Source of the DNA: Fischerella sp. JS2 | GTDB taxonomy: Bacteria; Cyanobacteriota; Cyanobacteriia; Cyanobacteriales; Nostocaceae | Length of the DNA stretch: 64,000 nt | Direction: 5' to 3' | Assembly: GCF_032393985.1 (NCBI RefSeq) | Contig: NZ_CP135918.1 | Coordinates: forward strand, 3,348,001 to 3,412,000 | The notes under the pieces: generated by a model | What the model was told of the DNA's origin: nothing | The model's database searches: none | The model's input: only the letters and a program-made list of their open reading frames with translations | In this document: in pieces, positions 659 to 3,522 of the stretch | Position numbering within the stretch: the first letter of the stretch is position 1 | Layout: every line of letters starts with the position of its first letter | Position numbers and translations under genes: made by a program

Positions 659-1702
659 TCAAAACAATAATCCTACTCCCACGATCGCTATGATCACACC
701 TGCGATCGCTCTCCAGGTAACTTTTTCGCCTAGCCACATCCCAATGGGAATCACAAACACCGGACTAGTTTGCACTAAGGTAGAAGCAACCCCCGCAGCA
801 GTATATTTTAAAGCTATTTGCTGTAACCAAATTCCTAAGTAAGTTCCGCAAAAAGCAGCAAAAATAATTGCTATTAAGACTCGCGATCGCCTAGCCTTGG
901 CTATACTAACTAAGTTTTCCGATGGGGATTCTAAAACTTGTCTGTGCAGGTTTTGCTTGTGTAACAAAGATTTTAATACAGTATTGCAAAACGTAAAAAT
1001 CAGCAGAATCAGCACACCAGCACTCAACCGCAACAAAGCTGCCCACAAAGGGTTCATAATAGATTGTGCGAATGCTGCACGCGAAAACAAAGCCCCCACA
1101 GCATTAGCAACTGCTGCTAACACTCCAAACCCTATTCCCCGCCATAAACTTGTTGTAGCATCAGACAAAGAGGAAAATCTGCTTCTGTGTCCTCCTTGTC
1201 CCCTTTCTCCCCCCATCCCCCTGCCTTCAGGAGTCCGTTCTGTTACCACCCAAGCAACTCCTAAAATCGTCAGCAGAATCCCACACCAAGCACTGAGATT
1301 TAGCTGTTCTTGGAGAAAAATCATTGCACCAATAGCTGTTATGGGCGGGGCTAAGGTTCCCATCAGTAAAGCGCGTCGCGCTCCTAAAGTATTGATACAA
1401 GCAAAAAAGACTGTATCACCAAAACCAATACCCACTACACCACTGAGGAGAATTAGAGAAAGGGGAATGGGGGCGATGCTAGGAAATAATTCGCTACTCA
1501 GTACAATAGTAAGTAAAAGTAGAGCGATCGCAACTATGCCCTTCAGTAAGTTGAGTTGCAGAGGCGGGATACGCTCACCCAAACGCCCATACACCACAGA
1601 TGCGATCGCCCACAAACAGGCAGCAGACAAAGCTGCTATTTCACCTTGAAAACTTATGAAGAAGACAGAAGGCAGAAGGCAGAAGTGATAAGGGAATCCC
1701 AT
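659..1702 (-). CDS. EamA/DMT-family transporter
   Basis: This predicted inner-membrane protein of 347 residues has about ten hydrophobic helices in two EamA halves. The first half opens with AALSAACLWAIASVVYGR and the second ends in VIIAIVGVGLLF. Members of this drug/metabolite transporter superfamily export small metabolites; the substrate here is unknown. The start is uncertain. The first ~19 residues are translated from a CTTCTGC-type short tandem repeat, and homologous proteins would be expected to begin near FQGEIAAL, but the only in-frame ATG is at 1702. A Gly-rich low-complexity linker (around TERTPEGRGMGGERGQGG) separates the two halves and also looks repeat-derived. Confidence 0.85.
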   Translation of the reverse strand: MGFPYHFCLLPSVFFISFQGEIAALSAACLWAIASVVYGRLGERIPPLQLNLLKGIVAIALLLLTIVLSSELFPSIAPIPLSLILLSGVVGIGFGDTVFFACINTLGARRALLMGTLAPPITAIGAMIFLQEQLNLSAWCGILLTILGVAWVVTERTPEGRGMGGERGQGGHRSRFSSLSDATTSLWRGIGFGVLAAVANAVGALFSRAAFAQSIMNPLWAALLRLSAGVLILLIFTFCNTVLKSLLHKQNLHRQVLESPSENLVSIAKARRSRVLIAIIFAAFCGTYLGIWLQQIALKYTAAGVASTLVQTSPVFVIPIGMWLGEKVTWRAIAGVIIAIVGVGLLF

Positions 1703-2007
1703 AAATAAATGATTCTGTTAGCGAATTGATCAGGGGTCTAATCCCGAGCGTTATCATCAGTCTTGATAAGAGGTGTTTCAACGTACTTGAGGTATTAGCC
1801 CGCAATTTATTGCAGGGCGGGATAATGGCGCTTCTGCCTTTTAACGCTTGCCTTCCATTGAAGGCGGTTAATGACGAATTTAAAAAATTATTAAAAATAA
1901 TATTTCCCCCTTTTCAATTACTCCAAAATTTTCATATTTTAATAAAAATACTTTTATAAACATTAGCACTTAATGCACAACACTGCTAATTTTTTGCTGG
2001 ATAAACT
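1703..2007. other. Intergenic region upstream of the CIRCE-controlled gene
   Basis: A 77-codon open frame (1726-1959) lies here but its composition is not protein-like, and it overlaps hairpin-forming sequence (CCCGC...GCGGG near 1799-1821; GCCTT...AAGGC near 1850-1864). I see no gene. An imperfect CIRCE-like operator starts at 1963. Confidence 0.5.
1963..1989. promoter_or_regulatory. CIRCE-like operator, upstream copy
   Basis: TTAGCACTT, nine bases, then CACTGCTAA. Compared with the CIRCE consensus TTAGCACTC-N9-GAGTGCTAA this is 8/9 in the left arm and 7/9 in the right arm, with the exact nine-base spacer. It lies 45 bp upstream of a better copy, which supports its being real. CIRCE is bound by the HrcA heat-shock repressor. 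Confidence 0.55.
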
Positions 2008-2034
2008 TTAGCACTCAAGATAGAAAAGTGCTAA
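2008..2034. promoter_or_regulatory. CIRCE operator (HrcA site)
   Basis: TTAGCACTC (2008-2016), nine bases, AAGTGCTAA (2026-2034): 17 of 18 arm positions match the CIRCE consensus with the canonical spacer. A plausible sigma70-type promoter follows directly (TTGAAG at 2039, 16-bp spacer, TATAGA at 2061), so bound HrcA could block transcription of the gene at 2151. In cyanobacteria CIRCE is otherwise known mainly from groESL and groEL2. Confidence 0.8.
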
Positions 2035-2038
2035 TTTG

Positions 2039-2066
2039 TTGAAGATTTTAATACCTCTGGTATAGA
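2039..2066 (+). promoter_or_regulatory. Putative sigma70-type promoter
   Basis: TTGAAG-N16-TATAGA lies immediately downstream of the CIRCE operator and about 85 bp before the ATG at 2151. Predicted from sequence only. Confidence 0.4.
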
Positions 2067-2150: not shown

Positions 2151-2501
2151 ATGAAATACACTTTTGATATTGTTGGAGTATCTCAAGTTTTACAGTTTTT
2201 TAATCATCAACAAGAAACTTTGCACAAACCGCAACACCAAGGTGTGGAATATATCGCAACGCATACATGTACATTAGATGCACTGCTAGAATCTGTGGAG
2301 CCAGTACCACAAAAATGGAATTGGGACAAAGATGAAGTTGTAGGTACAGTCATTAATTTTTGGATGCAGAATTCTGAGACTATTCGTTATTGGAAAGCAC
2401 GTTTAATAGATGCTGGCACAGATAACTTACTAGTAGCAAGAGTCGCAGATATCAAAGCCTTAAAGAAAGAATTGGAATATCTGTTAGATGGAAATTTATA
2501 G
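2151..2501 (+). CDS. Small hypothetical protein under CIRCE control
   Basis: This soluble protein of 116 residues starts MKYTFDIVGVSQVLQFF and has no membrane segment or signal peptide. The middle is Trp-rich (KWNWDKDEV, NFWMQNSETIRYWKARL) and the C terminus is a charged amphipathic helix (IKALKKELEYLLDG). I do not recognise a named domain. The start at ATG 2151 follows GGGGTAACAGCA, a weak ribosome binding site. The two CIRCE-like operators and the promoter upstream make it a candidate heat-shock-induced protein, possibly a co-chaperone or stress factor; that is inference from regulation only. Confidence 0.75.
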   Translation: MKYTFDIVGVSQVLQFFNHQQETLHKPQHQGVEYIATHTCTLDALLESVEPVPQKWNWDKDEVVGTVINFWMQNSETIRYWKARLIDAGTDNLLVARVADIKALKKELEYLLDGNL

Positions 2502-2718: not shown

Positions 2719-3522
2719 ATGACGCCTTCACAAGACGCAAACACTGTAACTGCTCACACTGCTCCTGGTGTTGATTTTGAAACCAATGAGCAAAAAGAAA
2801 CCGATCCTTTGGATGAATTGCCAGGAGAGGTCGAAATGACCCTTTTTGAGCATCTAGAGGAGTTGCGACTGCGGATTTTTTATGCACTGATTGCAGTAGC
2901 AGTAGGTGTGGTTGGCTGCTTTTTTGCTGTTAAGCCTATAGTTCAGTTGTTGGAAGTGCCAGCCAAAGGAGTCAAATTTCTCCAGCTTGCACCCGGAGAA
3001 TACTTTTTTGTATCTCTGAAAGTCGCAGGCTATAGTGGTTTACTCCTTGCTAGTCCCTTCATACTGTACCAAATCGTCCAGTTTGTGCTGCCAGGCTTAA
3101 CTCGCCGAGAACGTCGCTTATTAGCTCCTATAGTTCTAGGATCAACTGTGCTGTTTGCAGTAGGTTTAGTATTTGCTTATTTCCTACTGATTCCAGCTGC
3201 TTTAAAATTCTTTATTAGCTACGGTGCAGATGTTGTAGAACAACTATGGTCAATTGACAAATATTTTGAATTTGTCCTGTTGTTACTATTTAGTACGGGT
3301 TTAGCATTCCAAGTACCGATTATCCAACTTTTACTCGGTAGTTTAGGAATTGTCTCGTCAAGTCAAATGCTTTCTGGCTGGCGTTATGTAATTTTAGGTG
3401 CAGTAGTTTTAGGGGCCGTAATTACGCCTTCTACAGACCCCCTGACCCAAACTCTCCTAGCGGGAGCCGTACTAGGGCTGTACTTTAGCGGAATTGGGCT
3501 AGTTAAGCTTATAGGTAAATAG
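2719..3522 (+). CDS. tatC: Sec-independent protein translocase TatC
   Basis: TatC is the polytopic core of the twin-arginine translocase. It binds RR signal peptides and works with TatA/B to move folded proteins across the thylakoid or plasma membrane. The protein has 267 residues, six hydrophobic helices and the conserved N-terminal signature [13 protein letters not shown] around residue 40, followed by the family's FxxP-type loop and a conserved [11 protein letters not shown] loop before the last helices. The cytosolic N-terminal tail of ~40 residues is acidic, as is common in cyanobacteria. The ATG at 2719 is the only good start. A tatA gene lies 17 kb away at 20519, so the subunits are not in one operon here. 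Confidence 0.97.

Follow-up and report, generated by a model that had tools for sequence, protein, structure and literature searches.

A small cyanobacterial gene behind tandem CIRCE-like operators as a probable member of the HrcA heat-shock regulon

The upstream DNA of a short uncharacterised gene of Fischerella sp. JS2 carries two CIRCE-like operators, which raises the question of whether this gene belongs to the HrcA regulon and what its product may do there. CIRCE in cyanobacteria has been tied to groESL and to a lone groEL (PMC5381637, PMC2662882), and a review notes that HrcA might also affect some genes that have no CIRCE (PMC7760821). When the window (the whole stretch of DNA analysed, 64 kb) was scanned for the pattern TTAGCACTC-N9-GAGTGCTAA with at most 3 mismatches, only two matches were found, at 2008-2034 and 1963-1989, with a start-to-start spacing of 45 bp. 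The tandem sites with exact 9-bp spacers that had been read from the letters alone are therefore confirmed by the pattern scan (17/18 and 15/18 positions). Dinucleotide-shuffled versions of the window gave a mean of 0.04 matches, and two matches occurred in 0 of 100 shuffles. The features of the locus are collected in the table. From its sequence context, the gene at 2151-2501 very probably belongs to the HrcA (class I heat-shock) regulon, with repression under ordinary conditions and release on heat.

Table. Features around the CIRCE-bearing gene; coordinates are positions in the window.
Feature	Coordinates	Strand	Basis or remark
EamA/DMT transporter gene, divergent neighbour	659..1702	-	Pfam EamA
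Distal CIRCE-like operator, C-type, right arm CACTGCTAA	1963..1989	+	3 mismatches, 15/18, N9 spacer
Proximal CIRCE	2008..2034	+	1 mismatch, 17/18 to consensus, N9 spacer
Putative SigA-type promoter TTGAAG-N16-TATAGA	2039..2066	+	sequence; start site predicted
116-codon gene, uncharacterised family (P0001)	2151..2501	+	open frame, conserved in homologues
tatC, next downstream gene	2719..3522	+	Pfam TatC

The 7.02-Mb one-contig genome of the strain, of which the window covers 3348001-3412000, holds six CIRCE places at no more than 3 mismatches. The only two perfect CIRCEs precede groESL and a lone groEL, and one match falls within a 653-aa frame (L004). A further 3-mismatch match is present at 5985059-5985085 of the same contig (G000:C1). 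The Cpn10 family has one match in this genome.

A contig scan gave 87 relatives of the locus, the best 80 of which were kept; one of them (L046), with 167 bp of upstream DNA, was left out, so that 79 loci were scored. Retention of the operator before homologues in related genomes had been named by the sequence-only reading as a point to check, with its absence as grounds for refutation, and a CIRCE with at most 3 mismatches is indeed found upstream of the homologue in 79/79 loci among these best 80 of 87 relatives, as against 0/78 downstream stretches and 0/395 dinucleotide shuffles, where the best match never had fewer than 5 mismatches. By their best site, 6 loci have 0 mismatches, 52 have 1, 20 have 2 and one has 3. 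In 65 of the 79 loci the site closest to the ATG has its start 115-175 bp ahead of that codon (range 122-539). The families of the compared genomes bear anonymous labels: f1 is called Nostocaceae-like from named matches, and f29 is one that we take, in part from genome size, to be Synechococcus-like. A CIRCE site was present in 33/33 of the f1 whole genomes with the gene in one set and in all 22 such genomes of the class sample, counts that are not independent events since the sampled genomes are related and the samples overlap. The window protein itself is closest to Fischerella, with 94% identity to F. thermalis PCC 7521 and F. muscicola PCC 7414.

The divergent EamA gene offers another possible client for the operators, because in 40/79 loci an EamA gene was found beyond the sites upstream of the small gene, and the CIRCE might serve the transporter rather than the small gene. 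However, the site is kept in 39/39 loci without an EamA match in the locus DNA just as in 40/40 with one, so that the CIRCE follows the small gene and not EamA; moreover, the f29 loci also keep the site before the small gene. We consider it most improbable that the transporter is the true target, and the EamA gene is probably not part of the regulon. No consistent operon partner was found, as neighbours vary among loci with the exception of EamA and an ATP-grasp-like gene: in many f1-type loci EamA is divergent, and the ATP-grasp-like gene, so identified by sequence reading, is convergent. The tatC gene is a neighbour in close relatives only: of the loci L036-L276, just L036, L037 and L137, the last being the copy of the window's own locus, have tatC near the gene.

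More than one operator is present in 23 of the 79 loci, with a spacing of 44-46 bp (55 bp in two), and some loci have three. Among 109 sites with at most 3 mismatches in L036-L115, position 21 is G in 72, C in 36 and T in 1. A C at this position defines the C-type class, in which one half-site reads TTAGCAGT in place of TTAGCACT. In the 23 multi-site loci, a C-type site lies distal to a G-type site in 17 cases, both sites are G-type in 2 and both C-type in 4, and the reverse order occurs in none. As 44-46 bp correspond to about 4.3 helical turns, cooperativity on the same face of the DNA is unsupported by the spacing number alone, and a tandem duplication accounts for this spacing as well. Upstream of the gene in L116, three identical CIRCE-like sites (TTAGCAGTC-N9-AAGTGCTAA) are carried by near-identical 57-bp tandem repeats.

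The gene family was detected in 174/388 class genomes with a first profile and in 178/388 with a joint profile. Its f29 homologues are distant, sharing 25-33% identity with the window protein in full-length alignments (40-53 bits with the first profile). There were 24 f29 genomes with a match, and in 19 loci the best site within 500 bp was sought; here and in the scans of other families, distances refer to the model start, which is not always the ATG. The best f29 sites have 0, 1, 2, 3 or 4 mismatches in 1, 2, 10, 1 and 4 of the 19 loci, with 9 mismatches in L282, in which no CIRCE was found in the upstream scan. At most 3 mismatches are thus seen in 14/19 loci and at most 4 in 18/19, compared with 0/380 shuffles at 3 or fewer and a single one (1/380) at 4, and the 19 downstream stretches never had fewer than 7. 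The f29 operators are found 109-134 bp ahead of the model start. Many of the palindromes are altered symmetrically in both arms, for example TTGGCACTC/GAGTGCCAA (N9 spacer), TCAGCACTC/GAGTGCTGA and CTGGCACTC/GAGTGCCAG. In a comparison with the chaperonin operators of the same genomes, the f29 groES operators begin with TTGGCA in 13/13 genomes compared, and the same A-to-G change (TTAG to TTGG) is found in 8/13 of the operators of the small gene, the remaining 5 keeping TTAG, TCAG, TGAG or CTAG, unlike groES. Of the observations made, this partly shared operator drift points best to one regulator acting on both groES and the small gene. Perfect CIRCEs precede both genes in three genomes (G231, G107 and G382). 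As the small gene appears to be under the same switch as the chaperonins, and as this arrangement is kept in distant cyanobacteria, its product is probably an overlooked part of the heat-shock response.

The regulator co-occurs with the gene, hrcA being found in 176/178 genomes with the gene and in 175/210 without it (Fisher p 3e-8), an association confounded by genome reduction and shared ancestry, as small f29 genomes are without both. The two exceptions differ in quality. In the 69%-complete G323 no hrcA was found though the gene is present, and in G014, an f1 genome on one contig and 99% complete, neither the family model nor a protein search recovered hrcA. In the latter genome (loci L121, L157 and L314), groES is preceded by a perfect CIRCE and the small gene by a site with 2 mismatches. 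Such sites kept beside no detectable hrcA could mean that a different repressor reads CIRCE-like palindromes and that the gene stands outside HrcA control, as could the share of C-type sites (36/109 in L036-L115) and the zero-mismatch C-type sites, which lie at the small-gene promoter in 11/11 cases among the matches listed. In contrast, perfect CIRCEs precede the small gene in several genomes, the drift described above is shared with groES in 8/13 f29 genomes, and a HrcA family search finds hrcA as a single copy in the window's genome. Control by another repressor is accordingly judged unlikely, and regulation by HrcA remains our preferred reading.

In families other than f1 and f29 most loci are without a clear site, which weighs against the regulon reading. 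A site with at most 3 mismatches was found in 15/124 loci (L151-L276 minus the f1 loci L157 and L160), and one with at most 2 in 8/124; in one whole-genome set, 3/13 non-f1 genomes have a CIRCE site. A looser scan for inverted repeats in 135 loci, two of them f1 and with one short locus excluded, picked out 27 loci (empirical p about 0.03 or less; 4-5 expected), several of the 27 being degraded repeats of one family. We tentatively favour an ancestral site that was often lost over several separate gains.

The promoter TTGAAG-N16-TATAGA is present as first read, with its hexamers at 2039-2044 and 2061-2066. In an alignment of 72 upstream regions the -10 element (AtATAGa) is conserved and the -35 hexamer is not, and a scan of 1700-2720 for consensus promoters returned 3 sites versus 4.5 expected, the TTGAAG/TATAGA pair not being among these. 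In the window this -10 begins 26 bp past the CIRCE, and a start site some 7 bp beyond the -10 would place the CIRCE at about -65 to -39. The operator would therefore stand upstream of the predicted promoter. No K-box pattern is seen at the 2151 gene, whereas one is found at groESL. The predicted position of the CIRCE differs from that at groES, where the CIRCE covers the mapped start; this start falls in the loop of the CIRCE, as it did in an earlier study of Synechocystis (PMC2662882). Alternatively, the promoter of the small gene may be further upstream, with transcription starting inside the CIRCEs. The same geometry bears on the idea that the inverted repeat acts mainly as a hairpin in the leader RNA, for stability or as a thermometer, instead of as a DNA operator. 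Symmetric changes in the two arms are also expected of an RNA stem. Nevertheless, the spacer length and the CIRCE sequence are kept as at groES, and since the -10 begins downstream of the repeat, the latter would not be transcribed from that promoter and would fall outside the predicted transcript. A role as an RNA hairpin is thus given hardly any weight, and the repeat is better read as a DNA operator.

In the mechanism that we propose, HrcA dimers, kept folded by GroEL, would occupy the CIRCE at 2008-2034 and, with a probably lower affinity, its variant at 1963-1989; bound there, the repressor would hold down transcription of the 2151 gene. On heating, GroEL would be drawn to unfolded clients and HrcA would lose its fold, so that the gene would be induced along with groESL and groEL2. 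The feedback between GroEL and HrcA is described as established in a review (PMC7760821).

The product has 116 residues; all of 62 homologues share W71, L42-D43 and G9, and nearly all have W58 and W81. The AlphaFold model of the window protein (pLDDT 91.0) predicts the order beta, alpha, beta, four alpha, beta, alpha, and the model of an f29 homologue (pLDDT 93.5) has a similar order of elements, suggesting a small alpha/beta protein with conserved tryptophans. In Pfam, the window protein matched no family at E up to 10, and the 62 members gave 10 families, each in 1-2 of them, with a best E of 0.0032 and no chaperone. NCBIfam gave no credible relation (best E 0.023), and Foldseek searches with the two models against PDB had best E-values of 0.56 and 1.0, the first model reaching 0.64 against BFVD. 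No known chaperone or co-chaperone family or fold was matched in Pfam, NCBIfam or Foldseek. Searches of PDB sequences likewise yielded no credible relation, and the lack of a Foldseek match (none with E below 0.5) is not proof of a new fold. The earlier proposal of a new chaperone-linked factor in the HrcA regulon divides into two parts: membership is well supported by the 79/79 loci, the f29 sites, hrcA in 176/178 genomes and the drift in 8/13, whereas neither family, fold nor operon partner connects the protein to chaperonins. A HigA/YbaQ helix-turn-helix identity was rejected, as the profile match to 2eby had an E of 7.4e-5 with A1 but 0.053 with A4, and the models hold strands within the stretch matched to this all-helical domain; 2eby is also absent from the best 50 of 71 and the best 50 of 68 Foldseek matches. 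The identities puhA, Dps and YbaQ were set aside because the matches are weak, partial or at odds with the models. Similarly, slr1068 was guessed as the orthologue from a galE-like neighbour in L277 and dropped.

A guess at a counterpart in Synechocystis 6803 was slr1674, for which no evidence of orthology to the 2151 gene was found. What likens it to the predicted heat-shock gene here is that it too is uncharacterised: slr1674 is described as strongly heat-induced, and its mutant loses basal PSII thermotolerance (PMC2865547). Because of the company that the gene keeps, one may guess at a proteostasis accessory factor, either a partner of the chaperonin or a protector of photosynthetic clients, a role that we hold weakly and regard as somewhat doubtful. 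With similar reserve, it is conceivable that the gene adds a third arm to the HrcA regulon, ancestral and present throughout cyanobacteria, whose product has a fold not found in PDB and acts beside or with the chaperonins in photosynthetic cells, and that heterocyst formers gained graded control through two or three HrcA operators, the distal of which has a variant and perhaps weaker half-site.

The operator has the same 9-9-9 layout as that described for CIRCE/HrcA control of cyanobacterial groESL and the lone groEL (PMC5381637, PMC7760821), but its target here is neither GroES nor GroEL, and in several genera it occurs in two or three copies 44-46 bp apart, often with one of the variant type. 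Two CIRCEs at one promoter are also described for the dnaK operon of Lactococcus lactis and the hrcA operon of Lactobacillus plantarum (PMC1676014, PMC3842655). The double sites of these lactic acid bacteria serve dnaK or hrcA operons, whereas the array reported here serves an uncharacterised gene, its operators are spaced at 44-46 bp, and a variant half-site recurs in the distal one. In the open-licence PMC literature the 2151 gene family was not found as an HrcA target, its absence from print being thereby unproven. If the assignment is true, the gene would be a new CIRCE-bearing target coding for a heat-shock protein which distant families share and which is no known chaperone. Thermotolerance of the photosystems is a practical question in cyanobacteria, for which the gene gives one knockout target, and the operator arrays with their recurrent variant half-site would form a natural experiment on the way in which HrcA reads several sites. 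Finally, inspection by eye of 250 bp upstream in f29 loci revealed a small palindrome, CTGTTC-N3-4-GAACAG, after the CIRCE in L284, L289 and L291; it is also present in L282, which is without a CIRCE, and in weaker form in L280, L285 and L290, while other f29 loci have the right half only (CTGAACA or similar). This block is possibly the site of a second regulator or part of the promoter.
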